Translations under genes and position numbers: made by a program | From: a virus | IMG/VR virus record: IMGVR_UViG_3300046009_015620 | Location: 1-21,233 of that record | DNA length: 21,233 nucleotides | Direction: 5' to 3' (one strand) | Shown: positions 2,466-17,472 of the stretch, in pieces | Numbering within the stretch: the stretch's first letter is position 1 | Layout: each line of letters opens with the position of its first letter | Notes under the pieces: model-generated | The model's input: only the letters and a program-made list of their open reading frames with translations | Told to the model about the DNA's origin: nothing | Database searches by the model: none

Positions 2466-5126
2466 ATTAGCTATATTGATTGTTTGTACGATCGTGACCG
2501 CGACCGCATTCACGTGATCGAAAGATCAAACGGTAAACGAATATACAAAGAGTTTTCTGCAGATTATCGATTTTACTATGACGACCCACGAGGAAAATAT
2601 CTTTCTATTTTCAATACCCCGGTCAGCAAATTTACATCTAGGCATCTAAAAGAATTTAGAAAAGAGTTGAAACTGCATCAGGGAAAAAATATCTACGAGT
2701 CAGATATCAATCCCATATTCCGATGTCTAGAAGAAAACTACAAGGGTCAAGAGCCCCCTCGGCTTCATACTGCATTTTTTGATATCGAAGTTGATTTTGA
2801 CCCGGTCAAAGGTTACAGTAGACCGGAAGATCCATTTAACCCAATTACAGCAATATCAATTTATTTAGATTGGTTGGATCAATTGGTCACATTGGTCATT
2901 GCACCACAGACCTTGAGTCATGATCAAGCCAAAATAATTGCCAACGAATACGACAACTGCTTTGTTTGCTCGTCTGAACAAGAATTAATTGATAACTTTT
3001 TACAGTTGATTGATGATGCAGATGTATTGAGTGGCTGGAACTCAGAGGGCTTTGACATTCCCTACTTGGTGATGCGTACCACTAGAATTCTCAGTAGAGA
3101 TGATACTCGAAGATTTTGTCTTTGGGAACAGATGCCAAAACAAAGAACTTTTGAAAGGTTCGGTGCAGAAAATATCACTTTTGATTTGGTCGGTAGAGTG
3201 CATATGGACTACATGCAACTCTACAGAAAATACACCTACGAAGAAAGGCACAGTTATAGTCTGGATGCCATTGGTGACTATGAAGGTGTTGGCAGCAAAG
3301 TTGCCTACGAGGGCACACTAGATCAACTGTACAACAAGGAATTCAGTAAATTCATACTGTATAACAGAGAAGATGTGGCCTTGATCGCCAGACTGGACAA
3401 AAAATTAAGATTTTTGGATTTGGCCAATACATTGGCACACGAAAATACTGTGTTGTTGCCCACCACAATGGGTGCAGTGGCAGTTACAGAGCAGGCCATC
3501 ATAAACGAAGCACACGAACGAGGCATGGTTGTGCCCAATAGAAAAGACAATGGCAACGGGGAAGATTTGCAGGCAGCAGGTGCATATGTGGCTTACCCCA
3601 AAAAAGGCATACACGAGTTTGTGGGCAGTGTGGACATCAACAGTCTGTATCCCAGCACCATTCGTGCATTGAATATGGGGCCAGAAACCATCATAGGGCA
3701 AATACGACAAGTTCAAACCGACAGCTATATCAAGGATCGTATGGCTCGTGGTATGAGCTTTGCTGAAGCATGGGAAGGTCTGTTTGCCACCTTGGAATAT
3801 AGTTGTGTCATGGACCGTCGAGCAGATACAGTACTCACAGTTGATTGGCAAAATGGCGAAGAGACCACGCATTCAGCTGCTGAACTTTACAATATTATAT
3901 ATAGATCTGGCAAATCGTGGATGTTGAGTGCCAACGGTACAATATTCAGTGGCGAAAGAGAAGGTGTGGTCCCTGGTCTACTGAAACGATGGTATTCAGA
4001 AAGAAAACAGATGCAGGCCAAACTTCGCGATGCAAAAAACAAACAACAAGAAGAATACTGGGACAAAAGGCAGCTGGTCAAAAAAATTAATTTGAATAGC
4101 TTGTATGGTGCGATTTTGAATCCAGGATGTAGATTCTTCGACAAACGTATTGGACAAAGTACCACACTGTGCGGCAGGTCTATCACCAAGCACATGACCG
4201 AAGAAATAAATTCTATCATAGACAATGATAAAAATCATCTGGGTCGTAGTATCATTTACAATGACACAGATTCCTGTTATTTTTCAGTCTGGCCCATAAT
4301 TAGAGAAAATGTAGAAAACAAAACCACAGAATGGAACAAGGACATTGCTGTTTCAGTCTATGACAACATTGCCGATTTGGTCAATCAAAGCTTTCCAATT
4401 TTCATGTCACAGGCATTTAATTGTCCAAATGACAGAGGGTCGGTCATCCGTTGTGGTCGCGAGTTGGTTGCATTGAGAGGTTTATTCATTACCAAAAAAA
4501 GATACGCACTGCTGTACTATGACAAAGAAGGTCGCAGATATGATCAAGAACAACATGGCAAAATCAAGGCCATGGGGTTGGATCTAAAAAGAAGTGATAC
4601 TCCCAAAACTGTTCAAGATTTTTTAAATTCCATACTCAAGGATGTGCTGTCTGGTGCTGAGCAGGAAATTGTGTTGGAGAAAATTCGAGAGTTCAAAGTA
4701 GAATTTGCCAAAAGACCAGCATGGGAAAAAGGCACCCCCAAACGAGTCAACAATTTAACCAACTATGGTCGTAAAGAACAACAACAGGGCAGAGCCAACA
4801 TGCCCGGGCATGTCAGAGCTGCACTCAACTGGAATAATCTCAGGCGTATGCACGGTGATAACTACAGTTTACAAATTGTAGATGGCATGAAAACCATAGT
4901 ATGTAAACTATTGCCCAATCCCATGGGTTACACCAGTGTGGGATACCCAACTGACGAAACCAGGTTACCCGAGTGGTTTAAAGAATTGCCATTTGATGAT
5001 TCCAGTATGGAATCCACCATCGTGGATCAAAAAATAGAAAACTTACTGGGGGTGCTGAATTGGAATCTCAAAGATACCACACAAACCAATAACACTTTTA
5101 ATTTGCTGTTTGAACTAGAAGAATGA
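2466..5126 (+). CDS. 43: DNA polymerase, family B (T4 gp43-like)
   Basis: Replicative DNA polymerase with 3'-5' proofreading. Numbering from the ATT gives 886 aa, close to T4 gp43 (898). Exo I is FFDIEVDFD (Asp106, Glu108), Exo II is SGWNSEGFDIPY (about 189-200), and Exo III is YNREDV (about 299-304). Polymerase motif A is DINSLYPS (about 390-397), motif B is KKINLNSLYGA (about 539-549), and motif C is YNDTDS (Asp600, Asp602). All catalytic acids are present. The C-terminus (FNLLFELEE) is hydrophobic then acidic and could be the clamp-binding tail, as in gp43. The start is unusual: the GGAGA site favours ATT at 2466, adding six residues (SYIDC after the initiator); otherwise TTG at 2484 gives 880 aa. 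The stop overlaps the next gene (ATGA). A DsbA-like gene precedes it and the sliding clamp gene follows shortly. Confidence 0.95.
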   Translation: MSYIDCLYDRDRDRIHVIERSNGKRIYKEFSADYRFYYDDPRGKYLSIFNTPVSKFTSRHLKEFRKELKLHQGKNIYESDINPIFRCLEENYKGQEPPRLHTAFFDIEVDFDPVKGYSRPEDPFNPITAISIYLDWLDQLVTLVIAPQTLSHDQAKIIANEYDNCFVCSSEQELIDNFLQLIDDADVLSGWNSEGFDIPYLVMRTTRILSRDDTRRFCLWEQMPKQRTFERFGAENITFDLVGRVHMDYMQLYRKYTYEERHSYSLDAIGDYEGVGSKVAYEGTLDQLYNKEFSKFILYNREDVALIARLDKKLRFLDLANTLAHENTVLLPTTMGAVAVTEQAIINEAHERGMVVPNRKDNGNGEDLQAAGAYVAYPKKGIHEFVGSVDINSLYPSTIRALNMGPETIIGQIRQVQTDSYIKDRMARGMSFAEAWEGLFATLEYSCVMDRRADTVLTVDWQNGEETTHSAAELYNIIYRSGKSWMLSANGTIFSGEREGVVPGLLKRWYSERKQMQAKLRDAKNKQQEEYWDKRQLVKKINLNSLYGAILNPGCRFFDKRIGQSTTLCGRSITKHMTEEINSIIDNDKNHLGRSIIYNDTDSCYFSVWPIIRENVENKTTEWNKDIAVSVYDNIADLVNQSFPIFMSQAFNCPNDRGSVIRCGRELVALRGLFITKKRYALLYYDKEGRRYDQEQHGKIKAMGLDLKRSDTPKTVQDFLNSILKDVLSGAEQEIVLEKIREFKVEFAKRPAWEKGTPKRVNNLTNYGRKEQQQGRANMPGHVRAALNWNNLRRMHGDNYSLQIVDGMKTIVCKLLPNPMGYTSVGYPTDETRLPEWFKELPFDDSSMESTIVDQKIENLLGVLNWNLKDTTQTNNTFNLLFELEE

Positions 5127-6037
5127 AGTTGAGTTCAATACAATACGACTTGAGTGTGCTACACTCAATTAAAAAAAATTATTCCCAATTCACAGGACAG
5201 CATCTGTTGAAAGAAACAATGTCTACACTTTTGAATATGGACAATGAGTTTTTTTCAGATATCTCAACAAAATTTAATCAACTAGACGATACACTGATAA
5301 AGATCATAGATGACAAGATTCAACATTTACAATCCAAGGCGCAATCAATCAGCACAGAATATTTAGAAAAACATCGACATCATTTTTATCATGTCTATAT
5401 CGAAAGTAATCTAGTGGTAAGAAAATGGCATTTGAATCCCACTGTTAAAAAGGTAATTGTCAACAAATTACAAATGCACAGCAATTGGATATTTCCAGGA
5501 TTGATATTCAGGCCCACTTCGTTGGACTCCATTAGATCAATGGTGGCCTGTGATCCACTTTACATTGTTGATACCACTGAGTTTTTGTTGGAACATGCCA
5601 AAATGGAATTTCCGGACTCGTATCAAAGACGACTGCGGCCCTATGTGATAGATCAAACAAAGGATAATTTTTTGTCTCATCTACCACAAGACAATTTTGG
5701 CTTTATAACCAGTTTAGATTTATTAAAGTATAGAAATATTCAGCAAATAGAAACCTATTTGAAAGAAATTTTCAAACTATTGAGGCCAGGCGGCATCTTC
5801 AGTTTCAGTTTCAATGACTGTGATCACGGCCATGAAACTTCTTTGGCAGAAAGTTTTGCGTTTAGTTTTGTACCCGGCAATATGTTAAGATCGATCATAC
5901 AACAAATAGGTTTTAATATTGTGCTGGTATACAGAGATATCTCGGCTATTTCGTGGTGGGAAATTCAAAAACCCGGCAATATACAAAGTATTCGAGGCGG
6001 ACAAACTTTGGCAAAAATCATTGTAAAATCTAAATAA
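5123..6037 (+). CDS. Methyltransferase-like protein, degenerate
   Basis: 304 residues, starting inside the polymerase stop (ATGA), so probably co-translated. The N-terminal 115 residues are helical with a coiled-coil look. The C-terminal part resembles a class I SAM-dependent methyltransferase: an Asp-ended strand (DPLYIVD, about 144-150), then FGFITSLDLLKY (about 192-203), the strand-helix with LLRPGGIFSFSFND (about 219-232), and a final region rich in aromatic residues. The usual glycine-rich SAM loop after strand 1 is not recognisable, so cofactor binding is doubtful. It sits between polymerase and clamp, suggesting a role at the replication fork or on DNA. An active methyltransferase, a structural relic, or a protein binding another nucleotide are all possible. 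Confidence 0.65.
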   Translation: MKLSSIQYDLSVLHSIKKNYSQFTGQHLLKETMSTLLNMDNEFFSDISTKFNQLDDTLIKIIDDKIQHLQSKAQSISTEYLEKHRHHFYHVYIESNLVVRKWHLNPTVKKVIVNKLQMHSNWIFPGLIFRPTSLDSIRSMVACDPLYIVDTTEFLLEHAKMEFPDSYQRRLRPYVIDQTKDNFLSHLPQDNFGFITSLDLLKYRNIQQIETYLKEIFKLLRPGGIFSFSFNDCDHGHETSLAESFAFSFVPGNMLRSIIQQIGFNIVLVYRDISAISWWEIQKPGNIQSIRGGQTLAKIIVKSK

Positions 6038-6069: not shown

Positions 6070-6795
6070 ATGAAAGACCAGTTACTGGACCTCGTACAGC
6101 ACACATATGATCTGGGATTTATTGATCTGTTAAAAATCACCGGAACAGACGAAAAAACTAAAATTTACTCAATGGCCGAAGATAAATCCGTGGTAATTCA
6201 TGGTGAGTTTATAAATCCCATTGCAGACTTCAACGGATCGTTTGGTATGCCCAATCTAAACAAACTGAAAATTTTGTTGAACTTGCAAGAATATAGAGAA
6301 AATGCGCGATTGACTGTGAGTCGTAGAGCCACTGATCAGCTGTTGGATGGTATAAATTTTGAAAACAGCACAGGAGATTTTTGCAACAGTTATAGATTTA
6401 TGTCCTCGAAAATTGCCGACGAACAATTAAAGACCTACAATTTCAAGCAGCCACCATGGATCATCGAATTTGAACCCAGTGCCAATTCGATATTGCGTCT
6501 TCGAATGCAAGCCCAGGCCAATGCAGAAGAGACAGTGTTTCGAACTGAAACCAGCAACAACGACCTGAAACTCTACTTTGGCAATCACAGCAGCCATGCT
6601 GGCAATTTTGTGTTTCAATCAGATGTCGGTGGCAAACTAAAAAACACTTGGTCTTGGCCGGTATCACAGATACTTGGCATCTTGGGATTAGTGGGCAATA
6701 AAATGATTAGAATCAGCGACATGGGTGCCATGCAAATCACAGTGGATTCCGGTCTAGCAATTTATAACTATTTTATATCTGCTCACACAAAATAA
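6070..6795 (+). CDS. 45: Sliding clamp (T4 gp45-like)
   Basis: Processivity clamp that in T4 forms a trimeric ring, tethers the polymerase to DNA and activates late transcription. It is 241 aa (T4 gp45 is 228). Visible family features are the FGMPNLNKLKILL strand-helix segment (about 58-70), the mixed beta repeats, and the C-terminal DMGAMQITVDSGLAIYNYFI segment shared in pattern with gp45. A strong AAGGAGAA lies just before the ATG. The 32-nt gap upstream contains TATACT at 6042-6047 but no convincing -35. No clamp-loader genes (gp44/gp62) are in the window. Confidence 0.85.
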   Translation: MKDQLLDLVQHTYDLGFIDLLKITGTDEKTKIYSMAEDKSVVIHGEFINPIADFNGSFGMPNLNKLKILLNLQEYRENARLTVSRRATDQLLDGINFENSTGDFCNSYRFMSSKIADEQLKTYNFKQPPWIIEFEPSANSILRLRMQAQANAEETVFRTETSNNDLKLYFGNHSSHAGNFVFQSDVGGKLKNTWSWPVSQILGILGLVGNKMIRISDMGAMQITVDSGLAIYNYFISAHTK

Positions 6796-6811: not shown

Positions 6812-8473
6812 ATGCAAAATAACTTCACAAAAAAACAGACCGACAGCGCAGGACTTAGTAAATGGGCAGTGTTTCTTCCTGCTATATCGGGGTTCTATGC
6901 TACCTTCATAGGGAAACAACGAGTGGGTCACTATGTGGATCCAGCTCGTTTTCCTGTTGGTATCAAGAACATGGAACAACTGAATTGGCTCAACAGTCAA
7001 CAGGCCTTATTTCCTTATCGGTGGAGTTTGTACAGTGCCGGTCATGCAAATTTAGATCTCACCAAAACCGACCCCAGTGAGGACATGATTAGACAACGAC
7101 CTCCCGACAGTTTTATGTTGGGCGACAGCGGCGGATTTCAGATAGCCAAAGGTCGTTGGCCTGGCGAATGGCGAGATCCCAATGGTCCTGAAGTTCAGGC
7201 CCACATTGCACAATTGCAATCACAGGGCACAAAACAACAAATCAACAAAAAAGGACAGATAAAAATTGTAGATCCGGTTCAGGAATACAAAAAAACATTG
7301 TCTGAAACAGAAAAGAAAAGAAAAAGTGTGTTGACCTGGTTGGACAGTATAGCAGACTACAGCATGACTCTAGACATACCCACTTGGGTCATACATGATC
7401 AAGAAGTTGGTCAAGTTTGCGGTATCAAAACATTGAAAGAAGCCATTGATGCCACAAAGTACAACAATGATTATTTTATCAATCATCGCAAAGGCAAAAA
7501 CAACGGCGGTACCAAGATACTGAATGTGCTGCAGGGCGACAATCACGATTCAGCAGACAGTTGGTATGACACAATGAAAAGCTATTGTGATCCCAAAATC
7601 TACCCAGAACGGCATTTTGATGGATGGGCCATGGGTGGTCAAAACATGTGTGATGTGCATCTGGTTATTCGTAGATTGATCACAATAATTTATGATGGAC
7701 TGCTACAGCCTGGATTACATGACTGGATGCACTTTTTGGGTACCAGTAAACTGGAATGGGCTTGTCTATTGACCGATATACAAAGAGCAGTCAGACAGTA
7801 TCACAATCCCAATTTTACTATCAGCTTTGACTGTGCCAGTCCTTTTTTGGCCACTGCCAATGGTCAACTTTATATTCACAACGAGTGCAGACATAGATCT
7901 AAATGGGTATATCGAATGGAACCCACCTTGGATGACAAATCCTACAAAAATGACACCAGACTATTTCGAGATGCAGTCACGCAAGACGGTATACACACCG
8001 ACTTTCACGACAGTGTTGTCAGCCAACTGTTGCAAGCCAACGACATTTGTGTTTATGGTCCAACTGATCGTAACAAGGTAGGTAAGATCGGCAATACCAG
8101 TTGGGACAGTTTTAGCTATGCTTTGCTGATGGCACACAATGTTTGGCATCATATCAACGCAGTTCAGACTGCCAATGAATTATATGAACAGGGAACTTTA
8201 CCTTTGATGTTGGCCGGCAAAACTGACCCAAAATATAATTTTAGTCTTGTTGTGAATGATATTTTTAGCCAAAAAACTAGACAGGCTAGTCTAGATCGTA
8301 TAAAGTACTATGAATCATGTTTCGATCAAATCATTGGTACCCGAGGATTTACAGGAAAGAATCTCATTCGTACAAGCGATGTTTTGTTTGACACATTTTT
8401 TGAAGAAGAAAATTCACAACCAGAATCAAATGACCTTGATTCTACCTATCTGGAACTACTGGAAATCAAATGA
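6812..8473 (+). CDS. dpdA: DpdA-like DNA 7-deazaguanine transglycosylase
   Basis: Member of the tRNA-guanine transglycosylase (TGT) superfamily, of the phage DpdA type that swaps guanine in DNA for a 7-deazaguanine base. It is 553 aa, longer than bacterial TGT (about 375). TGT landmarks are in order: LGDSGGFQI with Asp105 (base-pocket/acid Asp), LDIP with Asp188, WAMGGQ (about 272-277, the counterpart of GGLAVG), and ISFDCASPF with Asp340 in the place of the nucleophilic Asp of TGT. The CxCxxC-His zinc signature of tRNA TGTs is not seen, which argues against a tRNA enzyme. The following gene overlaps by ATGA. FolE, QueD, QueE and a YhhQ-type transporter occur in the same window, which strongly supports a DNA deazaguanine role. 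The ATG at 6812 has only a weak GGA upstream. Confidence 0.85.
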   Translation: MQNNFTKKQTDSAGLSKWAVFLPAISGFYATFIGKQRVGHYVDPARFPVGIKNMEQLNWLNSQQALFPYRWSLYSAGHANLDLTKTDPSEDMIRQRPPDSFMLGDSGGFQIAKGRWPGEWRDPNGPEVQAHIAQLQSQGTKQQINKKGQIKIVDPVQEYKKTLSETEKKRKSVLTWLDSIADYSMTLDIPTWVIHDQEVGQVCGIKTLKEAIDATKYNNDYFINHRKGKNNGGTKILNVLQGDNHDSADSWYDTMKSYCDPKIYPERHFDGWAMGGQNMCDVHLVIRRLITIIYDGLLQPGLHDWMHFLGTSKLEWACLLTDIQRAVRQYHNPNFTISFDCASPFLATANGQLYIHNECRHRSKWVYRMEPTLDDKSYKNDTRLFRDAVTQDGIHTDFHDSVVSQLLQANDICVYGPTDRNKVGKIGNTSWDSFSYALLMAHNVWHHINAVQTANELYEQGTLPLMLAGKTDPKYNFSLVVNDIFSQKTRQASLDRIKYYESCFDQIIGTRGFTGKNLIRTSDVLFDTFFEEENSQPESNDLDSTYLELLEIK

Positions 8474-8994
8474 ATAGAAACGGACATCAAGATGCAGAAT
8501 TTTTTCTGGGTCGAGAAGTAGAACATACTCCAGCCTATGGTATGTATACTCTGTTTGTAATAGGTTGTCAACCCAAAAACAAGATATTTGCTCATTTAGA
8601 CAGTATTCGTGACACTCCCATTGAACATGTTTATCTCGGCGCCAATCACAGTTTTCCCAGAAATATCACAACCAATGACTTTGCTGGTTGGCGACCGTGG
8701 GAAGAACTGGTCGACAGCATTTTGGATAGAGATTTATATTGCACCTTGGATATCAACATCAATCAAATTGAGGGACTATTGGAAACCAGTTTCTGCGAAA
8801 ACAACAAATTCATACCAATGATCAGTGCCCCATTGCCTTATATCAAACTGTTGGGCTACAACGCAGTATTGAAAATTGACGACATTGACTTCGATAAAAC
8901 CAATCCCGGTATTTGGTGTTACAGTATTCATTCACTGACACACAGGGATCAGTTTACCCCATGGTCTGCCTATGCAAAGGATCAAGTATTATGA
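8470..8994 (+). CDS. Unknown protein coupled to dpdA
   Basis: 174 residues starting within the dpdA stop (ATGA) and overlapping the next gene in the same way, so translated as part of a dpdA unit. Visible features are an N-terminal NRNGHQDAEFF segment followed by GREVEHTPAYGMYTLFV, a Trp-rich stretch (AGWRPWEELVDSIL), a strand-like CTLDI, and a C-terminal Trp-Cys / His / FTPWSAY region. It is rich in Trp, His and Cys. It has no signal peptide and no motif I can name. The coupling suggests a partner of DpdA or an enzyme acting on the modified base, but that is inference from position only. Confidence 0.7.
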   Translation: MNRNGHQDAEFFLGREVEHTPAYGMYTLFVIGCQPKNKIFAHLDSIRDTPIEHVYLGANHSFPRNITTNDFAGWRPWEELVDSILDRDLYCTLDININQIEGLLETSFCENNKFIPMISAPLPYIKLLGYNAVLKIDDIDFDKTNPGIWCYSIHSLTHRDQFTPWSAYAKDQVL

Positions 8995-9276: not shown

Positions 9277-9708
9277 ATGATAAAAACTCAGAGAGACACA
9301 GCCGACTTGATCACAAGTCTAGCGGAACGAAAAATTTTCGTTCAGTTTCAAAAAGAAGGGATTCATTGCTACCCAGCGGCAGCAACTGATCCTATGTTAG
9401 CAACAGGAGATCAATATGATGTCAGCTTTCTTGCAACGCCTCATAGGCATATGTTTCATTTTCGTGTTTGGATTGATGTCTTACACAATGACAGAGACAT
9501 TGAGTTCATACAATTTAAAAGATGGCTTGAGGGGTTGTATTCTGGCCCATCGAGTATTCTGCAGCTAGATTACAAAAGTTGCGAAATGATAGCCGAAGAT
9601 TTGTACTTGCAAATCACTGCAAGGTATCCCAACCGAGAGGTTTGGATTGAAATCAGCGAAGACGGAGAAAATGGAGCTTTGCTGAAATTTAAACTAGACA
9701 GAGTTTAA
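9277..9708 (+). CDS. T-fold (QueD/PTPS-like) protein lacking catalytic residues
   Basis: 143 residues that align by pattern with 6-carboxytetrahydropterin synthase (QueD). His30 sits where the first zinc histidine belongs (FQKEGIH). PHRHMF with His56 and His58 matches the HGH zinc pair. IEFIQFKRWLEGL resembles the MVxDFxxLK strand-helix, LDYKSCEMIAEDL resembles the LDH...TSExLA segment, and VWIEISED ends like the VxVxET strand with Glu128. The catalytic Cys (four residues before the His pair) and the catalytic His (Tyr99 here) are missing. It may therefore be a T-fold protein with another activity or only substrate binding. A clearer QueD lies at 13249. The ATG has AGGAC eight bases upstream. 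The domain call is a by-eye alignment. Confidence 0.5.
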   Translation: MIKTQRDTADLITSLAERKIFVQFQKEGIHCYPAAATDPMLATGDQYDVSFLATPHRHMFHFRVWIDVLHNDRDIEFIQFKRWLEGLYSGPSSILQLDYKSCEMIAEDLYLQITARYPNREVWIEISEDGENGALLKFKLDRV

Positions 9709-9789
9709 TTGAGTCTATCAAATTATCGCAGCGAAACACAAAAAACTACAAAGTTTTTTATAAAACCAACTATCACTAGAAAGATTACT

Positions 9790-10011
9790 ATGAGTAAAAT
9801 TACTATTCGCCCAAATCCACAAGTGTCAGAAGTATTTGATTTACTGGAAAAATATCTAGATTTTTGTCGTGAATATGGCTATCGATATTCTGAAAACGAT
9901 ATCAATAATTTTCGAAGTTATCCTTGGCAGCAGTTTACCAAATTCACAGCTGGCAAAAACTTTAAAAACCAATGGAATGAGGACTTGAAAAAACTCGAAG
10001 GTCTGTCATGA
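9790..10011 (+). CDS. Small unknown protein, 73 aa
   Basis: The start is taken at ATG 9790; a TTG at 9709 abutting the previous stop is in frame but has no binding site. The protein is helical and basic, with SKITIRPNPQVSEVFDLLEKYLDFCREYGY, then WQQFTKFTAGK and NQWNEDL. The following ATG is inside its stop (ATGA). No domain or function is recognised. Confidence 0.65.
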   Translation: MSKITIRPNPQVSEVFDLLEKYLDFCREYGYRYSENDINNFRSYPWQQFTKFTAGKNFKNQWNEDLKKLEGLS

Positions 10012-11183
10012 GAAAACTATGGTACATGATGTTGGAGCCATATCAAGAAAGATATACACTACAACTAACAGAATGGAATCGTCGTGTATTTGAATCACGA
10101 GGGTTAGATGTGGTATATGTCCCTGGCCATACACTAGATAATACCAAAAGTATTTCAGTGGGCCAAGTCTTGGATGCTCATGGCCGTAGTTATTTTTCTA
10201 TGAGCCAAATGATGTATCTCATACAGATGATGAGAAACGGAGAAGTCAACAGTGATGATGTCATTTTTTTCGAAGACATGTTTCAACCAGGCATCGAGAG
10301 CTTACCTTATATTCTCAATCAAATTAGTGCTGATCAGCGCCCTAGGATTTTTGTTCGTTGTCTTGCTCAAACCATTGATCCAGATGACTTTGTTCATGTC
10401 TGGGGTATGTCGAAATGGATGGGGCACTATGAAAAAATGGTTAATGAATTCGTAGATGGAGTATTGGCCACCAACGAAGAAATGGTCATGCACATGAAGA
10501 TTGCAGGTTGGAATGCTCCGATTTACAATATCAGTGGATTGGCATTTGGCAAAACAGAAGTTCAAGAACGAGTCAAAGAAATTATTCCTTTTGCAGAAAG
10601 AAAATTCCGTGTAGTGTTTTCGGCCAGATGGGATCAAGAAAAACAACCAGATTTCTACATGGATCTCATTGATGCATGGCATAAAAAATATCCCAACACT
10701 AATGTAGAATTTTGTGTGTGCTCGGGCGGAAAGTTAAAAAGCAATAATCAAAGTTACATGCAGCGAACACACAAGATGGCGGCCGACGGTACCCTTAAAA
10801 TCTACGATAACTTGGATAAAAATTCCTACTACAATATCGTCAATGACAGCCGTGTGGTTTTCAATTGTGCTCTACAGGACTGGGTATCAAACACAGTCAG
10901 TGAAGCGGATGCACTGGGTTGCAATGTGCTGTATCCTGCTTATCGAAGTTTTCCCGAAACATTTGCCAATGATGCTGAACGAATGTATATCCCTTGGTCA
11001 CTGGATGATGCCTTATACAAACTAGGCAAATTGTTGCTCACTACTCATCCCAACTTGGGGCAAATCAGTGATTGGACCAACTCCACTGTTGATCGTATCT
11101 GCGATATCATAGAAGGCAATGGTCAACAGTATCTTAGAGACAGCAAAGATTATCGTAAATATCTTAGACAAAAAAAATATTGA
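10008..11183 (+). CDS. GT-B fold glycosyltransferase-like protein
   Basis: 391 residues with the layout of a two-domain GT-B glycosyltransferase. The linker after about residue 195 leads into the strand VVFSARWDQEKQPDFYMDLIDAW (about 202-224), the usual start of the donor domain in GT4-like enzymes. The second marker is SNTVSEADALGCNVLYPAYRSFPETF (about 294-319), where Glu299 and the following small residues match the nucleotide-sugar binding E-A-x-A-x-G pattern. The first domain also carries a strand FEDMFQPG and a helix NEEMVMHM typical of the family. Substrate cannot be read. T4 glycosylates its modified cytosines with GT-B enzymes, so sugar addition to modified DNA is possible; a capsid or host-surface target is equally possible. 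A likely terminator follows. Confidence 0.75.
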   Translation: MRKLWYMMLEPYQERYTLQLTEWNRRVFESRGLDVVYVPGHTLDNTKSISVGQVLDAHGRSYFSMSQMMYLIQMMRNGEVNSDDVIFFEDMFQPGIESLPYILNQISADQRPRIFVRCLAQTIDPDDFVHVWGMSKWMGHYEKMVNEFVDGVLATNEEMVMHMKIAGWNAPIYNISGLAFGKTEVQERVKEIIPFAERKFRVVFSARWDQEKQPDFYMDLIDAWHKKYPNTNVEFCVCSGGKLKSNNQSYMQRTHKMAADGTLKIYDNLDKNSYYNIVNDSRVVFNCALQDWVSNTVSEADALGCNVLYPAYRSFPETFANDAERMYIPWSLDDALYKLGKLLLTTHPNLGQISDWTNSTVDRICDIIEGNGQQYLRDSKDYRKYLRQKKY

Positions 11184-11194
11184 TAAATATTTTT
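11173..11194. repeat. AT-only inverted repeat over the stop codon
   Basis: AAAAATATT (11173-11181) and AATATTTTT (11186-11194) are exact complements around a GATA loop and cover the stop of the glycosyltransferase gene. The site also contains GATAAATA, which resembles the T4 late-promoter element TATAAATA. It lies just upstream of the better terminator and may be an RNA end-stabilising hairpin or chance AT symmetry. Confidence 0.45.
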
Positions 11195-11224
11195 GTCGAA
11201 GTAAGATAGACTTTGACTTTTTTT
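11195..11224 (+). terminator. Likely rho-independent terminator
   Basis: GTCGAAG (11195-11201) can pair with CTTTGAC (11211-11217) as seven base pairs including one G-U, with a nine-base loop, directly followed by seven Ts (11218-11224). It would end the transcript that includes dpdA and the GT-B gene and separate it from folE. The stem is short for a strong terminator. Confidence 0.6.
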
Positions 11225-11240
11225 ATATTTTTAAAATATT
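11213..11240 (+). promoter_or_regulatory. Possible folE promoter
   Basis: TTGACT (11213-11218), inside the terminator stem and T-run, is 16 bases from AATATT (11235-11240), giving a short leader with the AAGGAG site before folE. The -10 match is poor. The argument is mostly that a new transcript should start after the terminator. Confidence 0.25.
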
Positions 11241-11258
11241 TGAGTAAGGAGATCAAAT

Positions 11259-11945
11259 ATGAGTTTCGACAAAAATAAATGCGACCCAGTTCTTGGTCGA
11301 GCAATCCGCCAACACCTTGTCAGCATGGGAGTAGAAACACCCATTGTTGACTCTGCACTGGCAGTGGAAAACAAAAAGAAAATAGACATCCTCGAACAGG
11401 CATTTACACAGATTTGGCAAACTGTGGGCATGGATCTCAGTGACGACAGTTTGGCCGAAACTCCCAATCGCATGGCAAAGATGTATATCAACGAAATTTA
11501 CTTTGGGTTAAAGGAAGAAAACTTTCCTAAATGTACCACTGTGCAAAACAAAATGAGCTACGACGAAATGGTTGTTGAACGAAATATCAATGTTCAAAGC
11601 AACTGTGAACATCACGGCGTGGTCATTGACGGGCTGGCCACAGTGGCTTATATTCCCAACAAAAAGGTGCTAGGCCTCAGCAAAATCAACAGGATTGTGG
11701 AATATTTCAGCAAACGGCCACAAATTCAAGAACGACTCACAGAACAGATATATCATGCACTACAATATATTTTAGACACAGACAATATCGGAGTAGTGAT
11801 CAATGCACAACATTACTGCGTAAAAAGTCGCGGGATTCAAGACACAGGCAGTTCAACCACAACCAGCAAACTAGGTGGTGTGTTTCGCACTGACAGTTCT
11901 GTGAGACTGGAGTTCATGAATATAGTAAATAATTGCAACAAATAA
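11259..11945 (+). CDS. folE: GTP cyclohydrolase I
   Basis: Converts GTP to 7,8-dihydroneopterin triphosphate, the first step of both folate and 7-deazaguanine synthesis. It is 228 aa, the usual length. Zinc site: Cys116 and His119 in SNCEHHG, and Cys187 in AQHYCVKSRG. Other family signatures are YIPNKKVLGLSKINRIVEYFSKRPQIQERLTEQI (about 131-164), GSSTTTSKLGGVF and the C-terminal RLEF. All expected active-site segments are intact. A strong AAGGAG precedes the ATG. In this window it most likely feeds QueD and QueE in deazaguanine synthesis. It follows a terminator and probably opens a new operon running through QueE. Confidence 0.96.
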   Translation: MSFDKNKCDPVLGRAIRQHLVSMGVETPIVDSALAVENKKKIDILEQAFTQIWQTVGMDLSDDSLAETPNRMAKMYINEIYFGLKEENFPKCTTVQNKMSYDEMVVERNINVQSNCEHHGVVIDGLATVAYIPNKKVLGLSKINRIVEYFSKRPQIQERLTEQIYHALQYILDTDNIGVVINAQHYCVKSRGIQDTGSSTTTSKLGGVFRTDSSVRLEFMNIVNNCNK

Positions 11946-11956
11946 AGGAGTATGAA

Positions 11957-12637
11957 ATGTTTTTATCTGACACTGTTTCTTATAGATCTGCTGCAGAAAT
12001 CAACAACGGAATGATCCGTGTCTACAACAATATGCTGTTGGCAGTTTTAACCAGTTTGATCATTAGTACCGTTGTGTCAAACAGCACCTCTCTGATGATG
12101 TTTTTCTTCACCGGATGGATGAAGTGGGTCACTGTTTTTGCACCACTGGCAGCAGTCTTTGCCATTGGTTTTGCATTGGCCAAAAACCCACCCAAAGAAA
12201 TAGCCTTGCTCATGCTGCACGGTTTTGCTGCACTCATGGGTTTGAGCATGGCCAGTTTATTTGACATATTCTCATTGGGCAGCATTGTCACTGCCTTTAT
12301 GGGCGCTGCGGTTTTATTTGGAACTATGAGTATATATGGATATTTTACGAAGAAAAGTCTCGAAAGCATGGGTCAGTTTATGTTTATTGGTCTTATTGCT
12401 GTCGTCATTGCCTCCATTGTTAATATTTTTATTGGTAGTAGTGTTATGGCTATGGTGATTTCAGCTTTGGCCATCGTAATCTTTTTGGGTTTGACTGCCT
12501 ATGATACTCAACAAATTAGAGAAGAACTCAGTATAGATCGTGACAGTTTAGTGGAGGTCACTGGTGCGCTTAGGCTATATCTTAACTTTATCAACATTTT
12601 CATTTCTTTGCTGCAGCTAACTGGCAACAAAGAATGA
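11957..12637 (+). CDS. Bax inhibitor-1 (BI-1/YccA) family membrane protein
   Basis: 226 residues, mostly membrane-spanning, with about seven hydrophobic helices (roughly at 22-43, 50-70, 78-96, 101-123, 133-155, 158-178 and 203-222). The loop YDTQQIREEL (about 181-190) and the C-terminal LYLNFINIFISLLQLTGNKE match the BI-1/TMBIM signature seen in bacterial YccA and YbhL (LDFINLF...LL.L.G). Bacterial BI-1 proteins are inner-membrane proteins; YccA binds the FtsH protease, and other members leak Ca2+ or protons. The ATG at 11957 is chosen because AAGGAG lies six bases upstream; a TTG at 11933 would overlap folE. In a phage it might modulate FtsH or membrane integrity, which is inference. Confidence 0.88.
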   Translation: MFLSDTVSYRSAAEINNGMIRVYNNMLLAVLTSLIISTVVSNSTSLMMFFFTGWMKWVTVFAPLAAVFAIGFALAKNPPKEIALLMLHGFAALMGLSMASLFDIFSLGSIVTAFMGAAVLFGTMSIYGYFTKKSLESMGQFMFIGLIAVVIASIVNIFIGSSVMAMVISALAIVIFLGLTAYDTQQIREELSIDRDSLVEVTGALRLYLNFINIFISLLQLTGNKE

Positions 12638-12643
12638 CAACAA

Positions 12644-13252
12644 ATGCTGAATTTTGATTATATAGATCGTTTTCCTGTTATCATAATTTCCAGTCCTCGT
12701 ACAGGATCAAATACTTTACTTACTAACATACTTGATTATTTTCGCCAAAAAGATCAAAATTTTTTTGCATTGAACGAGCCACATCACAGTAATCATGGTC
12801 AGGATTTCCAAAAGTTTCTTAGAATATGCAACCAACCACAACCTTATGTTATAAAATTTCATGCATACAACTATCGATTTTATAAAGAACTTGACCCAAA
12901 GATCAAAGCCAATGACTGCTATCTAATCAGGTTAAAAAGACAAAATGTCATAGAGCAGATTGCCAGTTCATATATTGCTGCTGTTAGGAATAAAGGATAT
13001 TATACTATCAACGACGAAATTGTAGATGAAACAATAGTAATAGATAGGAAAAAAATAAAATTGGCCATAAATGCAATATTAAAACATAATCAGGCGAGAG
13101 ATAATTTTGATGCCAAATTTGATAAAGAAATGATCTTAGAAGACATAGAGTTCAACGATTCATTTATGATTAAAACTCCCAAACCCAGCAACTATCAAGA
13201 GCTGATTGAACAAATAAACTGGAATATCTCACAAGGACAATACCAATTATGA
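12644..13252 (+). CDS. Sulfotransferase-like protein
   Basis: 202 residues with the two PAPS-binding marks of sulfotransferases: the N-terminal phosphate loop VIIISSPRTGSN (residues 12-23) and a second strand-helix YLIRLKRQNVIEQIASSYIA (about 93-112), in which Arg99 and Ser108 occupy the 3'-phosphate contact positions. VIKFHAY (about 69-75) corresponds to the intervening strand. It is shorter than typical family members (about 250-300 aa). It lies between the BI-1 gene and QueD and overlaps QueD by ATGA. It would transfer sulfate from PAPS to a hydroxyl or amine, with sugar the commonest target. Nearby glycosyltransferases make a sulfated sugar plausible. The acceptor (DNA, protein or surface glycan) is unknown. 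Confidence 0.72.
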   Translation: MLNFDYIDRFPVIIISSPRTGSNTLLTNILDYFRQKDQNFFALNEPHHSNHGQDFQKFLRICNQPQPYVIKFHAYNYRFYKELDPKIKANDCYLIRLKRQNVIEQIASSYIAAVRNKGYYTINDEIVDETIVIDRKKIKLAINAILKHNQARDNFDAKFDKEMILEDIEFNDSFMIKTPKPSNYQELIEQINWNISQGQYQL

Positions 13253-13752
13253 CTTATTTTCCAATCACTTATAAATTTGTCAGTACGAAAGAATATGTAG
13301 ACGAGTTCCCTTGTGCTTACAAACAATGGCGAGCAGACACACATTGCAATCTAAATCATGGCTATTCATTTTCTATCAAGTTTTATTTCGGTGCCAATGA
13401 ATTAGACAAAAGAGGATGGGTGGTGGACTACGGCGGTTTGAAAGAACTGAAACAAATTTTAAAAGATCAATTCGATCACAAAACATTGATTGCATCAGAT
13501 GATCCCGATCTTGAACAGTATAAACAACTGGAACGAGATAAAATTTTGAAACTGACAGTGCTGCCTGCCATGGGCTGTGAACTAATAGCCGACATGTTAT
13601 ACAAATTTGTCAACGGAGTATACATACCAGACTATCTAGGGCAAGGTGAAGCCCAACGAATCTGGTGTTATCGGGTGGAAGTACGAGAAACACAGACAAA
13701 TATGGCCTGGAGGGAAGGCCATCGAGAATGGAACGAAAATTTATTTGTTTAA
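13249..13752 (+). CDS. queD: 6-carboxytetrahydropterin synthase (QueD)
   Basis: T-fold enzyme that turns dihydroneopterin triphosphate into 6-carboxy-tetrahydropterin, the second step to CDG. It is 167 aa. Seen: FPCAYKQWRADTHCNLNHGYSF (19-41) with Cys33 four residues before His37, GWVVDYGGLKELKQ (56-69), FDHKTL (His77), GCELIA (Glu111) and VRETQTNMA (Glu147). Cys33, His77 and Glu147 match the catalytic Cys, His and Glu of QueD. The zinc site is atypical: HGH is HGY, and the FPCAH expected in this subfamily is FPCAY, leaving His32 and His37 as candidate ligands. It overlaps the sulfotransferase gene by ATGA and is followed by the transporter. Confidence 0.88.
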   Translation: MTYFPITYKFVSTKEYVDEFPCAYKQWRADTHCNLNHGYSFSIKFYFGANELDKRGWVVDYGGLKELKQILKDQFDHKTLIASDDPDLEQYKQLERDKILKLTVLPAMGCELIADMLYKFVNGVYIPDYLGQGEAQRIWCYRVEVRETQTNMAWREGHREWNENLFV

Positions 13753-13768
13753 ATTTATAGGAAAAACA

Positions 13769-14467
13769 ATGAACACTACAACTTTACATGATCGCTTTTT
13801 AGACAATCAACTTATTTCAATCGACCACAAAACACTATACTGGATCATTGGTCTGGCCGCTACTTTGATTATGACCATGACAGTAGCGGACTTTGCTGCT
13901 GCAAAATTTCTTGATTTTGGATGGGTAGTAACACCAGCAGGTGCATTATTATTTGCTGTGGTATTTGTTGTTAGAGACATGTTACACAAATTGGCTGGGG
14001 CGGCAATTGTTCGTCAAACTATATTGATAGGCGTGGTGCTGAATTTGCTCATAGCCACCTTTATGTATTTGATGACTTTTATACCTGCACCATCATTTAG
14101 ACCCAGTGTCAATTTTGATGCAGTCTATAAAATGAGCCTAGGTATTGTCATTGGTTCTGAAATAGCCACAATTGCCAGTCAATGGGTCAATACCATGGTA
14201 TATCAACGCCTATGGGAGAGTGATTGGGGCAGTTGGTCTAGAACCGCTGTGTCAAATCTTGTCAGCTTACCGGTAGATGCAGTGCTTTTTGTATTATTTG
14301 CATTTGTATTCATTCCCCCCATGTTGGGAGGCAATGCCATGGATATCAATACTGCCATTGCGCGAATTGTTTCTGGATCAACATTATTTAAGTTGGCAGT
14401 GATTTTGGCGTTGACACCATTGGTCAGCTTGGCACCGTGGCGCGAAGAAGCCAGAGAAATGAAGTGA
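13769..14467 (+). CDS. yhhQ: YhhQ-type queuosine precursor transporter
   Basis: 232-residue polytopic membrane protein with about six hydrophobic helices, matching the VUT/ECF family of queuosine-precursor carriers, of which E. coli YhhQ imports preQ0 and preQ1. Supporting segments are FAAAKFLDFGWVVTPAGALLF, FVVRDMLHKLAG (about 67-78, the counterpart of D-x-x-x-E/K-x-x-G in the family) and SNLVSLPVDAVLF (about 178-190), with the conserved Ser and Asp in a helix. The ATG at 13769 is preferred because AGGA at 13759-13762 is six bases upstream; starts further up would overlap queD. It would sit in the host inner membrane and supply precursor bases for DpdA. Known phage deazaguanine clusters sometimes carry this gene. 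Confidence 0.85.
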   Translation: MNTTTLHDRFLDNQLISIDHKTLYWIIGLAATLIMTMTVADFAAAKFLDFGWVVTPAGALLFAVVFVVRDMLHKLAGAAIVRQTILIGVVLNLLIATFMYLMTFIPAPSFRPSVNFDAVYKMSLGIVIGSEIATIASQWVNTMVYQRLWESDWGSWSRTAVSNLVSLPVDAVLFVLFAFVFIPPMLGGNAMDINTAIARIVSGSTLFKLAVILALTPLVSLAPWREEAREMK

Positions 14468-14706
14468 AACAAATAATTAGACAACCTTGGACTTTTTGGT
14501 ATGAATGGAGTATCACTGCAATTCTCATAGTAGGAGCAGTGCTTACTTCATTCAATGTCTATCCTCTAAATATTTGGTTTTTATTTGTCAGTAATTTGGG
14601 TTGGGCAGCACAGGCCATAATGTGGGAAAAATACAGCTTGTTCACTGTTCAAACAGTTATTACAATCATATATTTTCCACCGGTTATAAAATCAATAGTA
14701 CCATGA
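14464..14706 (+). CDS. Small membrane protein, 80 aa
   Basis: The GTG at 14464 overlaps the transporter stop (GTGA), so translation is probably coupled. Two or three hydrophobic helices (about 13-30, 32-50 and 54-75), rich in aromatic residues, with a Tyr-Pro-Leu-Asn (YPLN) turn between the first two. Its size and aromatic content recall half-size SWEET/PQ-loop or PnuC-like carriers, but there is no clear PQ motif. The coupling suggests it works with, or is regulated with, the YhhQ-type protein. Function is not established. Confidence 0.65.
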   Translation: MKQIIRQPWTFWYEWSITAILIVGAVLTSFNVYPLNIWFLFVSNLGWAAQAIMWEKYSLFTVQTVITIIYFPPVIKSIVP

Positions 14707-15524
14707 CACAAAAACACAAAATCAGTATTTTACTACCAAGTCGGGGTAGAATTGAAGCTTTAGAAAAATCGCTGACTTCTTTATTAGACACTGCCAACGA
14801 TGCAAAAAATATAGAAATTTTGTTGGCATTGGATCGTGATGACACAGCAGTGATAGATTTTTCCAAAACTACACTGAAAAACCGGCTTCGCAACGAATAT
14901 CAGTGCGGTCTTGTCATAGTGACCTTTAACCCCATTGGGTATATTAGATTAAACGAGTACCTCAATGTTTTGGCCAATATCAGTCAGGGCGATTGGTTGA
15001 TGTTTTACAATGATGATGCAGTGATGGAAACTCAGGGCTGGGACACAGAAATACTGAAGCACACTGGTAAATTTTCAGTTTTACGCACAGAGACCACCAA
15101 TCAGCATCCCTATGCCATATTCCCCATTGTTCCGCGCCAATGGATAGAAGTCAATGGTCATCTCAGTCCACATCAAATCAATGATGCATGGATCAGTCAT
15201 ATAGCCTACTTGCTCGATATCATGGTCAATATTCCGGTATTGATCAAACATGATAGATTTGACTTGACAGGCAATAATTTCGACAACACCTATAAAAACC
15301 GCCCCATGTTGGAGGGCAATCCCAATGACCCCAAAGATTTCAATCATATCACTTGGCGAGAAAAAAGATTAGAGGAGGCCAGTAAATTTTGTCACTACAT
15401 AGAAAAAACGGAAAATCGAATCTGCTCATGGTTCAGAGATGGCATAGCAGGCAAGATTGACATCTGGGAAAAAATGTACCAGGCTGATGTAAAAAATAGA
15501 TTAACCAAGATAACACATCAATGA
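14703..15524 (+). CDS. GT-A fold (GT2-like) glycosyltransferase
   Basis: 273 residues, starting within the previous stop (ATGA). N-terminal KISILLPSRGRIEALEKSLTSLL (about 6-28) is the classic nucleotide-sugar binding start of GT2 enzymes. Asp residues in LALDRDD (about 41-47) and the strand DWLMFYNDDAVM (about 97-108) supply the metal-binding Asp-Asp motif. The second half has Trp/His-rich segments (ISHIAYL, NHITWREKRL) likely to form the acceptor site. There are no membrane helices, so it is a soluble transferase. The donor sugar and acceptor are unknown. It is one of two glycosyltransferases in the window and lies in the same co-directional run as queD, yhhQ and queE. Confidence 0.75.
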   Translation: MTQKHKISILLPSRGRIEALEKSLTSLLDTANDAKNIEILLALDRDDTAVIDFSKTTLKNRLRNEYQCGLVIVTFNPIGYIRLNEYLNVLANISQGDWLMFYNDDAVMETQGWDTEILKHTGKFSVLRTETTNQHPYAIFPIVPRQWIEVNGHLSPHQINDAWISHIAYLLDIMVNIPVLIKHDRFDLTGNNFDNTYKNRPMLEGNPNDPKDFNHITWREKRLEEASKFCHYIEKTENRICSWFRDGIAGKIDIWEKMYQADVKNRLTKITHQ

Positions 15525-16300
15525 TGTCATTGACTGAAAAAATAGTAGAGTATTGGGATAGACAGCCTTGCAATATTTTGCATAGCCAAGCTGACATGAA
15601 CAGTGAACAATACTGGAATGAAATAACTCAACGAAGATATTTTGTTGAGCCGCATATACATGACTTGGCCAATTTTTCCAAGTGGCAAGGTCGAAGAGTA
15701 TTGGAAATTGGCTGTGGTATTGGCACTGATGCAGAACAATTTGTTCGCCACGGAGCAGATTACACTGGCATAGATGTCAGCACAAACAGCATAAATCTCT
15801 GCAAAAAAAGATTCGAAATACAACAACTGACAGGAAACTTTCTTTGTTGTGATTCAACCAATCCAGATTTAGTCAAGGAGTTGGGAAAATTTGATTTGGT
15901 CTACAGCATGGGGGTAATACATCATTGCCCAACCCCAGACAAAATCATACACAATGTCAACTGCCTGCTACAAGATAATGGAGAGTTTAGATTTTTGGTC
16001 TATGCTGAAAATAGTTGGAAATCGGCCATGATTCAATCAGGACTGGATCAATTTGAAGCCCAGGCAGGGTGTCCATACGCAGAAACTTATACAGAACAAA
16101 AGGTCAAAGACTTGATATCCACTTATTTTGACATAATCGATATTAGACAAGATCATTGTTTCATGTATAATATAGCTGAATATCGCCAAGGAAATTATGT
16201 GTTAGAACCATGGTTTAGAGAAATGCCCGAAGCCATGCGTCTGGCTATCAAAAAACATTTGGGTTGGCATCTTTGCGTAAAGGCTATTAAAAAATCATGA
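15521..16300 (+). CDS. Class I SAM-dependent methyltransferase
   Basis: 259 residues with a complete Rossmann methyltransferase core: motif I VLEIGCGIG (60-68), acidic motif II YTGID (Asp85), FDLVYSMGVIHHCPTP (124-139) as motif IV with the post-strand HH, and a following LLQDNGEFRFLVY strand. This is the UbiE/Methyltransf_11 type, which acts on small molecules, lipids or sugars more often than DNA; no NPPF/DPPY DNA amino-methylase motif is present. ATG 15521 shares bases with the previous stop; ATG 15524 is an equally good start. The 3' end overlaps the MazG-like gene (ATGA). Substrate unknown; sugar or modified-base methylation is conceivable from the context. Confidence 0.85.
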   Translation: MMSLTEKIVEYWDRQPCNILHSQADMNSEQYWNEITQRRYFVEPHIHDLANFSKWQGRRVLEIGCGIGTDAEQFVRHGADYTGIDVSTNSINLCKKRFEIQQLTGNFLCCDSTNPDLVKELGKFDLVYSMGVIHHCPTPDKIIHNVNCLLQDNGEFRFLVYAENSWKSAMIQSGLDQFEAQAGCPYAETYTEQKVKDLISTYFDIIDIRQDHCFMYNIAEYRQGNYVLEPWFREMPEAMRLAIKKHLGWHLCVKAIKKS

Positions 16301-16587
16301 TCAATGTTGATGAAATACTTTCGATTCTGCAAGAAGAATGTGCAGAGGTCATACAGGCAGTCAGCAAAGTCAATCGCTTTGGTATGACAGGAATGAACCC
16401 CAAAGACAACAAAAACAATCAATATCATCTAGAAGAAGAAATTGGTGATTTGACCTGTATGATTGAACTTTTGATAGAAAATGGTATAGTCAACAAAGAC
16501 AATATTGACAGTGCTGCTATCAATAAAAGAGTCAAACTGCGTAAATGGTCTACAATTTTTCTCAACAACAATATTCCAAATCAATAA
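16297..16587 (+). CDS. MazG-like NTP pyrophosphohydrolase (short)
   Basis: 96 residues, all helical. The metal-binding ExxE...ExxD motif of the MazG/all-alpha NTP-PPase family is visible as EECAE (Glu14, Glu17) and LEEEIGD (Glu48, Asp51), with KWS at the end of the last core helix. Such enzymes cleave NTPs or dNTPs to NMP and PPi, and phage members are thought to affect (p)ppGpp or dNTP pools. It lies between the methyltransferase and queE, overlapping the former by ATGA. A second MazG-like gene lies at 19711. Confidence 0.8.
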   Translation: MINVDEILSILQEECAEVIQAVSKVNRFGMTGMNPKDNKNNQYHLEEEIGDLTCMIELLIENGIVNKDNIDSAAINKRVKLRKWSTIFLNNNIPNQ

Positions 16588-16596
16588 AGGTCTACA

Positions 16597-17472
16597 ATGT
16601 CAAAATTTCACTATACAGAAAAATTTTATTCTGTCCAAGGAGAAGGTCGCTATTCAGGAGTTCCCAGTGTATTTCTTCGCATGTTCGGTTGTAACTTTCG
16701 TTGCAAAAATTTTGCAAGATATAACCAAGACATTCTAGGCGAAACAGTCTCACATAATCCAGAAGTCGTTGAGATCATCCGCAATATCGATCAATACAAA
16801 GAATTCAAAGATTTACCACTGGTCGAAACTGGCTGTGACAGCTATAGCTCAGTGTACCCAGAATTTAAAAAATTTGTTTCAAAAGCATCGGTTGACGAGC
16901 TTGCCGAAGATATTGTCAACTTGCTGCCCAATCAGACCTGGCAAGACGAGCATTTGGTCATCACTGGCGGCGAACCCCTGTTGGGTTGGCAAAAACTTTA
17001 TCCAAGTTTACTGAATCACAGCCTGATGCGTGGTTTAACCGAGATCACTTTCGAAACCAACGGCACACAAGCATTGACAGTTGATTTTAAATCTGCTTTG
17101 CAAGATTGGGTGAGTTGGCATTATCGCTGTGCCAAAGAAATTACATTTTCAGTGTCTCCCAAACTCAGCGTCAGTGGCGAAAATATTGCAGATTCCATCA
17201 AACCCAAAATCATAGTAGACTATGAAACTGTGGGGCACACTTATCTGAAGTTTGTGGTCAGTGGCATGAAAGACATTGAAGAAATTGAATATGTGGTGCA
17301 TCTATACCGAGATCAAGGTTTTCAAGGTCATGTCTACTTAATGCCAGTTGGCGGTGTAAATAGTGTGTACAATCAACATGCAAGAGAAGTGGCAGAACTT
17401 GCCATGAAATTGGGTTTTCGATACAGTGCAAGACTGCAGGTTGATTTGTGGAAAAATGCATGGGGTACATAA
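16597..17472 (+). CDS. queE: 7-carboxy-7-deazaguanine synthase (QueE)
   Basis: Radical SAM enzyme that contracts 6-carboxy-tetrahydropterin to 7-carboxy-7-deazaguanine (CDG). It is 291 aa against about 210-250 for bacterial QueE. FYSVQGEGRYSGVPSVFLRMFGCNFRC (10-36) is the family N-terminus, and VITGGEPLLGW (about 120-130) is the SAM-binding GGE motif. The [4Fe-4S] cysteines are displaced: Cys32 and Cys36 keep the CxxxC spacing, but position 39 is Phe, and the third Cys is most likely Cys80 in TGCDSYSS, which resembles the WCDT motif after an insertion of about 41 residues. FETNGTQ (about 151-157) fits the next strand. AAAGG precedes the ATG. It overlaps the next gene (TAATG). Confidence 0.88.
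   Translation: MSKFHYTEKFYSVQGEGRYSGVPSVFLRMFGCNFRCKNFARYNQDILGETVSHNPEVVEIIRNIDQYKEFKDLPLVETGCDSYSSVYPEFKKFVSKASVDELAEDIVNLLPNQTWQDEHLVITGGEPLLGWQKLYPSLLNHSLMRGLTEITFETNGTQALTVDFKSALQDWVSWHYRCAKEITFSVSPKLSVSGENIADSIKPKIIVDYETVGHTYLKFVVSGMKDIEEIEYVVHLYRDQGFQGHVYLMPVGGVNSVYNQHAREVAELAMKLGFRYSARLQVDLWKNAWGT

Follow-up and report, generated by a model that had tools for sequence, protein, structure and literature searches.

A phage gene cluster predicted to make and decorate a glycosylated 7-deazaguanine in DNA

Layout of the locus

The window analysed here is the complete IMG/VR virus record IMGVR_UViG_3300046009_015620, a genome fragment of 21,233 b. Its plus strand carries a cluster in which genes for 7-deazaguanine synthesis and for a DpdA-like guanine transglycosylase are interleaved with genes for two glycosyltransferases, one of the GT-B and one of the GT-A type, and for a methyltransferase. 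We examine this cluster as a candidate pathway for a sugar-bearing base in phage DNA. Open reading frames were checked against Pfam and PHROG profiles, and the features are given below, module genes first, accessory and upstream genes last.

6812-8473, plus strand: DpdA-like DNA (or tRNA) guanine transglycosylase, of a divergent subfamily common to PA5oct gp168
8470-8994, plus strand: g8470, conserved module gene that overlaps dpdA by ATGA and recurs in ACP17 beside a DpdA2-like gene
9277-9708, plus strand: QueD-fold (T-fold) paralogue, by predicted structure and residue conservation
9709-10011, plus strand: g9709, small gene conserved between T-fold and GT-B
10008-11183, plus strand: GT-B glycosyltransferase, retaining GT4-like; Pfam Glyco_trans_1_2/Glycos_transf_1 sub-threshold, predicted fold clearly GT-B
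11259-11945, plus strand: FolE, GTP cyclohydrolase I (PF01227 2.7e-60, phrog_2197)
13249-13752, plus strand: QueD, 6-carboxytetrahydropterin synthase (PF01242 2.2e-17, phrog_2389)
13766-14467, plus strand: YhhQ-like 7-deazaguanine precursor transporter (PF02592 6.4e-27); a GTG start at 13646 is also possible
14703-15524, plus strand: GT-A (GT2-like) glycosyltransferase (PF00535 1e-4, just under cut-off; phrog_14945 glycosyltransferase 2.1e-13)
15521-16300, plus strand: S-adenosylmethionine (SAM) methyltransferase paired with GT-A (PF08242 1.1e-16; phrog_22502 6.4e-61)
16297-16587, plus strand: MazG-like nucleotide pyrophosphohydrolase (PF03819, phrog_4856)
16597-17472, plus strand: QueE-like 7-carboxy-7-deazaguanine synthase (phrog_2076 4.7e-50), with an unusual Cys pattern
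11933-12637, plus strand: Bax-1-inhibitor-like membrane protein (PF01027 3.7e-50); accessory, in a minority of relatives
12644-13252, plus strand: sulfotransferase-like protein (PF00685 16.1 bits, cut-off 22); accessory
14437-14706, plus strand: DUF6552 small membrane protein (PF20189 4.8e-7)
2484-5126, plus strand: DNA polymerase B (polB), context upstream of the module
5123-6037, plus strand: methyltransferase-like MT1, context upstream of the module
6070-6795, plus strand: clamp-like protein, context upstream of the module

Four-base start/stop overlaps join dpdA to g8470 (8470-8473), g9709 to GT-B (10008-10011), the sulfotransferase-like gene to queD (13249-13252), the DUF6552 gene to GT-A (14703-14706), GT-A to the methyltransferase gene (15521-15524) and the latter to the MazG-like gene (16297-16300), an arrangement that fits co-expression. 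An earlier, sequence-only reading of this DNA had listed GT-B, folE, queD, yhhQ, GT-A, a methyltransferase and a sulfotransferase, several with overlapping ends, between 10008 and 16300. The overlaps are real and the genes are present, except that the sulfotransferase assignment is sub-threshold; queE lies just past that interval and dpdA before it. Two genes inside the interval were absent from that list, those for the Bax-1-inhibitor-like and the DUF6552 proteins. The polB, MT1 and clamp-like genes keep their synteny upstream of the module within the phage group.

Precursor synthesis and the DpdA-like enzyme

FolE, QueD and QueE are all encoded, which provides a route from GTP to 7-carboxy-7-deazaguanine (CDG); conversion to preQ0 needs QueC. 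No QueC was seen in the window, and only one of 20 relatives had it above cut-off, marginally, so that the phage pathway stops at CDG unless preQ0 comes from the host. YhhQ could serve such import but is rare among relatives. In QueE of the window and about 155 relatives, C-x3-C-x2-F replaces the radical-SAM motif C-x3-C-x2-C; the third invariant Cys is C80, part of GCD and about 43 residues further on, and the cluster motif is seemingly split by an insertion.

In a diverse 14-member alignment the window DpdA showed invariant DSGGFQ (105-110), GWAMGG (271-276) and FDCAS with D340, which we take to be the Tgt active-site motifs DSGGxQ, G-rich loop and catalytic Asp. The protein gave no Pfam match and, by phmmer or profile, no PDB match to Tgt. 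Its designation as DpdA-like draws on these motifs, on the gene neighbourhood and on the sequence-only reading, and it would be a very divergent member.

It is unlikely, in our judgement, that the DpdA-like enzyme and GT-B act on tRNA to make a glycosylated queuosine-like base. DpdA is a Tgt homologue, the window subfamily is distant from those tested on DNA, and glycosylated 7-deazaguanines are not known outside tRNA: galactosyl- and mannosyl-queuosine of animal tRNA carry a sugar on a 7-deazaguanine nucleoside, at the queuosine cyclopentenediol. Against an action on tRNA, the main-group module is flanked by a DNA polymerase, a clamp-like gene and an exonuclease, the recurring guanine-salvage genes described below (phosphoribosyltransferase, IMPDH/GMPR) fit bulk release of guanine, and the phage DpdAs tested so far modify DNA (PMC6884629).

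A QueD-fold paralogue beside GT-B

Structures of the T-fold protein and of GT-B were predicted with AlphaFold2 from alignments of the window and of IMG/VR and genome loci only. The T-fold model (mean pLDDT 93.2; order beta-beta-alpha-alpha-beta-beta) found its best PDB match in E. coli QueD (4ntk, E 5e-5), and comparison with the QueD profile gave a weak match. H30, H56, H58 and E128 are invariant, so that the three-His zinc site of QueD is kept. No conserved Cys lies shortly before HxH, where QueD has its catalytic Cys, the sole invariant Cys being C102. Because no Cys is conserved there and 19 of 20 relatives encode a true QueD as well, we rejected the protein as a true QueD; it was likewise rejected as a QueF, as QueF-like structures score far below QueD.

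GT-B is linked to the deazaguanine module

Relatives were gathered from IMG/VR with GT-B, DpdA, GT-A, the methyltransferase and a mixed GT-B alignment as queries, and every locus was annotated with profiles built from the window genes. The searches kept the best 80 of at least 598 loci; once identical copies had been discarded, the set held 218 distinct GT-B loci. Where at least 4.8 kb of upstream sequence was available, dpdA lay upstream of GT-B in 170/170 distinct loci and a T-fold gene was scored there in 169. Where downstream sequence reached at least 9 kb, folE was found in 82 and queE in 84 of 86 loci. Viewed reciprocally, the dpdA loci without GT-B all end within 3.8 kb past dpdA. Median identity to the window across 104 paired loci was 71.7% for GT-B, 67.9% for T-fold, 59.7% for polB and 47.9% for DpdA, and GT-B was more conserved than DpdA in all 104. 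Judged from these sequence comparisons, GT-B is not a mere passenger of the deazaguanine module. The sequence-only reading had proposed comparing gene order with dpdA among relatives, and had held that transferases widespread in relatives lacking dpdA would speak against its idea; for GT-B, dpdA comes first in all 170 loci with enough upstream sequence.

In five cultured phage lineages unrelated to one another, a GT-B of this family likewise lies beside dpdA, the T-fold gene or both. PA5oct and its relatives encode contiguous dpdA (gp168), GT-B (gp167) and T-fold (gp166); Sinorhizobium phage Phosso has T-fold, GT-B and folE, with a dpdA match far off elsewhere in the genome; Acidovorax phage ACP17 has folE, g8470, a DpdA2-like gene, GT-B, T-fold and queE; Xanthomonas phage X1 has GT-B, DpdA, T-fold and queE; and cyanophage BUCT-ZZ01 has folE, a second GT-B, DpdA, T-fold and GT-B. 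Gene order varies among the five, and so do the DpdA types, ACP17, X1 and BUCT-ZZ01 having a different one marked by DSGGLQ, FDEIP and SYDSTTH. Some phages, among them phiST and RHph_I1_18, carry T-fold and FolE without GT-B. The Paride paper does not mention deazaguanine.

Two phage loci deserve mention. In Synechococcus phage BUCT-ZZ01 the second GT-B, UTS52035 (L162:12010-13353), lies directly beside DpdA and is, by eye, a different GT-B-like glycosyltransferase. In Xanthomonas phage PhiXhv-12 (L340:7669-10903), genes for a GlmS-like protein, a BshB-like deacetylase and a GT-B enzyme follow consecutively with no deazaguanine gene annotated nearby, perhaps forming another phage sugar-modification pathway.

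The GT-B family was not found in bacterial genomes or their surface-glycan loci, five contigs of metagenome-assembled genomes excepted. These contigs (L335-L339), binned as Phycisphaerae, Syntrophomonadaceae, Rickettsiales, Rhodobacteraceae and Chloroflexi, are most likely misbinned phage contigs; four of the five hold further cluster genes. This distribution bears on the idea that the transferases have as their target a glycan or lipid on the surface of the host or virion, serving receptor masking or capsid glycosylation, and that their place in this cluster is accidental or that of cargo. GT4, GT2, epimerase and DegT genes are indeed typical of surface-glycan loci, and in Synechococcus phage Bellamy the methyltransferase has a homologue within a sugar cluster that shows no annotated deazaguanine genes. 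Surface modification nevertheless appears quite improbable in view of the 170/170 linkage of GT-B, its recurrence in five independent lineages, the linkage of GT-A (68/69, below) and the absence of the GT-B family from bacterial surface-glycan loci. The sequence-only reading had called the surface-glycan idea equally compatible with the sequence, an assessment that does not survive the tie between GT-B and DNA-modification genes.

Predicted structure and acceptor of GT-B

The GT-B model (pLDDT 82.5, with two poorly predicted loops) matched the retaining GT4 enzymes MshA, BshA, PimA and OtsA in the PDB, with E values down to 1.6e-11; sequence profiles of GT-B, T-fold, GT-A and DpdA searched against the PDB gave nothing decisive. 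R207, E211, K212 and E299 are invariant in the alignment. R207 and K212 supply the R...K donor-phosphate site of GT4, and residue 291, a D in the clade of the window but an E in the second GT-B clade, retains the GT4 pattern D/E-x7-E. An N-terminal stretch, E-x4-RYT, is also invariant. Since fold and catalytic residues are kept, GT-B is probably active as a retaining GT4-like enzyme. Two GT-B clades, about 22% identical, occupy one and the same locus as alternatives in phages that are otherwise syntenic (L002-L334); mapped on the DpdA tree, the swaps require at least two changes and most simply four. That one clade can stand in for the other points to an unchanged task, though the sugar may differ.

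The close structural relatives MshA and BshA have small-molecule acceptors (inositol phosphate and malate), and GT-B might by analogy act on a nucleotide or free base while the module makes an unglycosylated base only. We regard this as very improbable indeed: no small-molecule pathway is conserved with GT-B, the genes that constantly accompany it being dpdA, folE, queE and the QueD-fold gene.

The fold of GT-B also matches a cyanophage S-TIM5 protein named DNA alpha-GT, and the well-known phage DNA glycosyltransferases all act on pyrimidines. GT-B, and GT-A with it, could accordingly have a modified pyrimidine as acceptor, 5-hydroxymethyl- or 5-hydroxycytosine for instance, and lie next to the deazaguanine genes only because both belong to one anti-restriction locus; a thymidylate-synthase-family gene is present in 9 of 20 relatives. 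The other 11 lack any member of the thymidylate-synthase/hydroxymethylase family, and these include the GT-B carriers BUCT-ZZ01, ACP17 and X1, in which a pyrimidine acceptor is therefore unlikely. A search for TET/JBP oxygenases gave no match, though its control gave none either, and in each of the lineages GT-B forms part of the deazaguanine module. Overall, a pyrimidine acceptor seems improbable to us.

GT-A and methyltransferase

GT-A is GT2-like in its invariant residues, D45/D47/D48 (D-x-D-D) and NDD at 104-106. Deazaguanine genes accompany it in 68 of 69 distinct loci, and they lie within the retrieved stretch at 62 of 67 methyltransferase loci, the exceptions being L222, L247, L253 and two contig fragments. 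Neither gene is thus widespread apart from deazaguanine genes. The usual order is queD, GT-A, in some cases a further GT-A, methyltransferase and queE; the pair is found mainly with GT-B clade 1 and is less universal than GT-B. The Bellamy homologue of the methyltransferase sits among nucleotide-sugar and glycosyltransferase genes, which favours methylation of a sugar over methylation of the base. On balance the sequence evidence tips us slightly towards GT-A and the methyltransferase extending and methylating the glycan.

Accessory genes

Accessory genes were tallied in the interval from GT-B to queE at 140 loci. Sugar genes recur there, namely NDP-sugar (nucleoside diphosphate sugar) epimerase (50) and DegT-like sugar aminotransferase (25; the cluster representative matches part of the profile only), along with phosphoribosyltransferase (87), HIT (59), cytidylyltransferase-like (29) and B12/radical-SAM (19) genes; 2-oxoglutarate-Fe(II) oxygenases and IMPDH/GMP-reductase (GMPR) recur as well. 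Among 15 large relatives, an epimerase lay within 5 kb of GT-B in eight, against a mean of 1.2 under random placement, and a DegT aminotransferase in seven (null mean 0.8); the set includes closely related genomes, which makes the P values for this enrichment too strong, and the same genomes hold more epimerase and DegT genes away from GT-B.

The recurring phosphoribosyltransferase comprises L255:11014-11559 and 86 related genes, PA5oct gp163 and BUCT-ZZ01 UTS52039. Together with the IMPDH/GMPR genes it would possibly suit salvage of the guanine released by DpdA. The B12-dependent radical SAM protein (L240:7235-9157 and 18 related genes) is possibly a C-methylase of the sugar or the base.

The sulfotransferase-like protein contains a P-loop-like stretch, SPRTGSNTLL, visible by eye. 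Its gene has no relative in any other viral contig searched, and no sulfotransferase was among the PDB matches of the protein. A sulfated base was rejected because the gene is a singleton, scores below the PF00685 cut-off and lacks PDB support. Elsewhere in the window, 1029-1469 encodes a Dps/ferritin-like protein; Dps and Bax-1-inhibitor-like genes also occur in some relatives.

Discussion

The cluster is best read, and likely, as one that makes and decorates a glycosylated 7-deazaguanine in phage DNA. DpdA would replace guanines of the DNA with CDG or with a derivative of it, and we infer that the QueD-fold protein carries out this conversion of CDG. GT-B, acting as a retaining enzyme, would then use a nucleotide sugar to glycosylate the position-7 substituent through an O- or acyl linkage, or conceivably a C-linkage. 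In the subgroup with GT-A and methyltransferase, a second sugar would be added and the glycan methylated, while the accessory epimerase and sugar aminotransferase would tailor the donor sugar. By analogy with glucosylated hydroxymethylcytosine in T4, the bulky base would block restriction enzymes and perhaps Cas nucleases. With somewhat more reserve, we consider it probable that a widespread group of large phages swaps guanines for a sugar-bearing CDG-derived base, with a two-sugar methylated glycan in some lineages; this would be the first glycosylated purine in DNA, made with a dedicated family of GT4-like DNA glycosyltransferases and a new QueD-fold tailoring enzyme.

Several points weigh against this interpretation. 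CDG offers a carboxylate only as acceptor handle, and if the QueD-fold protein were a CDG decarboxylase, an activity known as DpdL, the base would lack an obvious handle. The thymidylate-synthase-family gene makes a pyrimidine acceptor possible in the 9/20 relatives that have it. The window DpdA belongs to a subfamily far from the DpdAs tested on DNA, and its action on DNA is a prediction from sequence. Four cultured jumbo phages carry a distant partial GT-B relative (25%), and the one inspected has no deazaguanine gene annotated nearby. Finally, synteny in the main group extends over the whole block that starts with the polymerase, which makes the linkage counts there non-independent, and the searches represent the best 80 of at least 598 loci. 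As for the sequence-only reading, in which the transferases act on the DpdA product, glycosylation is well supported (GT-B, 170/170 and five lineages; GT-A, 68/69), methylation moderately so (62/67) and probably of the glycan, and sulfation, with its singleton sub-threshold gene, falls away.

We know of no description of a glycosylated 7-deazaguanine in DNA, and our literature search, with preprints and the key 2023 paper outside its coverage, found no report of one. Four more phage 7-deazaguanines, dCDG, dDG, mdPreQ1 and fdPreQ1, were reportedly described by Cui in 2023 together with DpdL, DpdM and DpdN; they resemble the present case in further deazaguanine tailoring and in CDG-type bases without QueC, and to our knowledge include no glycosylated derivative. 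The established phage systems (9g, CAjan, Rosebush and nt-1; PMC6884629) share with the present cluster FolE, QueD and QueE and a Tgt-like DpdA that swaps DNA guanine, whereas here no QueC or amidotransferase was seen, the DpdA subfamily is another, and GT-B is universal and accompanied by a QueD-fold paralogue. The term "glycosyl" does not occur in the text of that study, which found none of QueA, QueG and QueH in the viruses surveyed (PMC6884629). The alpha- and beta-glucosyltransferases of T4 are likewise GT-B enzymes of a phage, and they put sugars on replicated DNA as a counter-defence. Their acceptor, however, is a pyrimidine, hydroxymethylcytosine; no close sequence match was found, and the present family folds closest to the GT4 enzymes MshA and BshA. 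A DNA carboxylate also serves as tailoring handle in the 5-carboxymethylcytosine/CmoY hypermodification, which differs in acting on cytosine by amide ligation to glycine, with no sugar (PMC12783734).

Bases of the 7-deazaguanine type and glycosylation of DNA are two separately known phage counter-defences, and here the gene sets for both occur fused in numerous environmental phages as well as in five or more cultured lineages, one of which comprises PA5oct and related phages on P. aeruginosa PAO1. If our reading is right, these phages would carry a new class of DNA base, a sugar-bearing deazaguanine, and a new family of DNA glycosyltransferases, which may bear on their resistance to restriction and to Cas nucleases.

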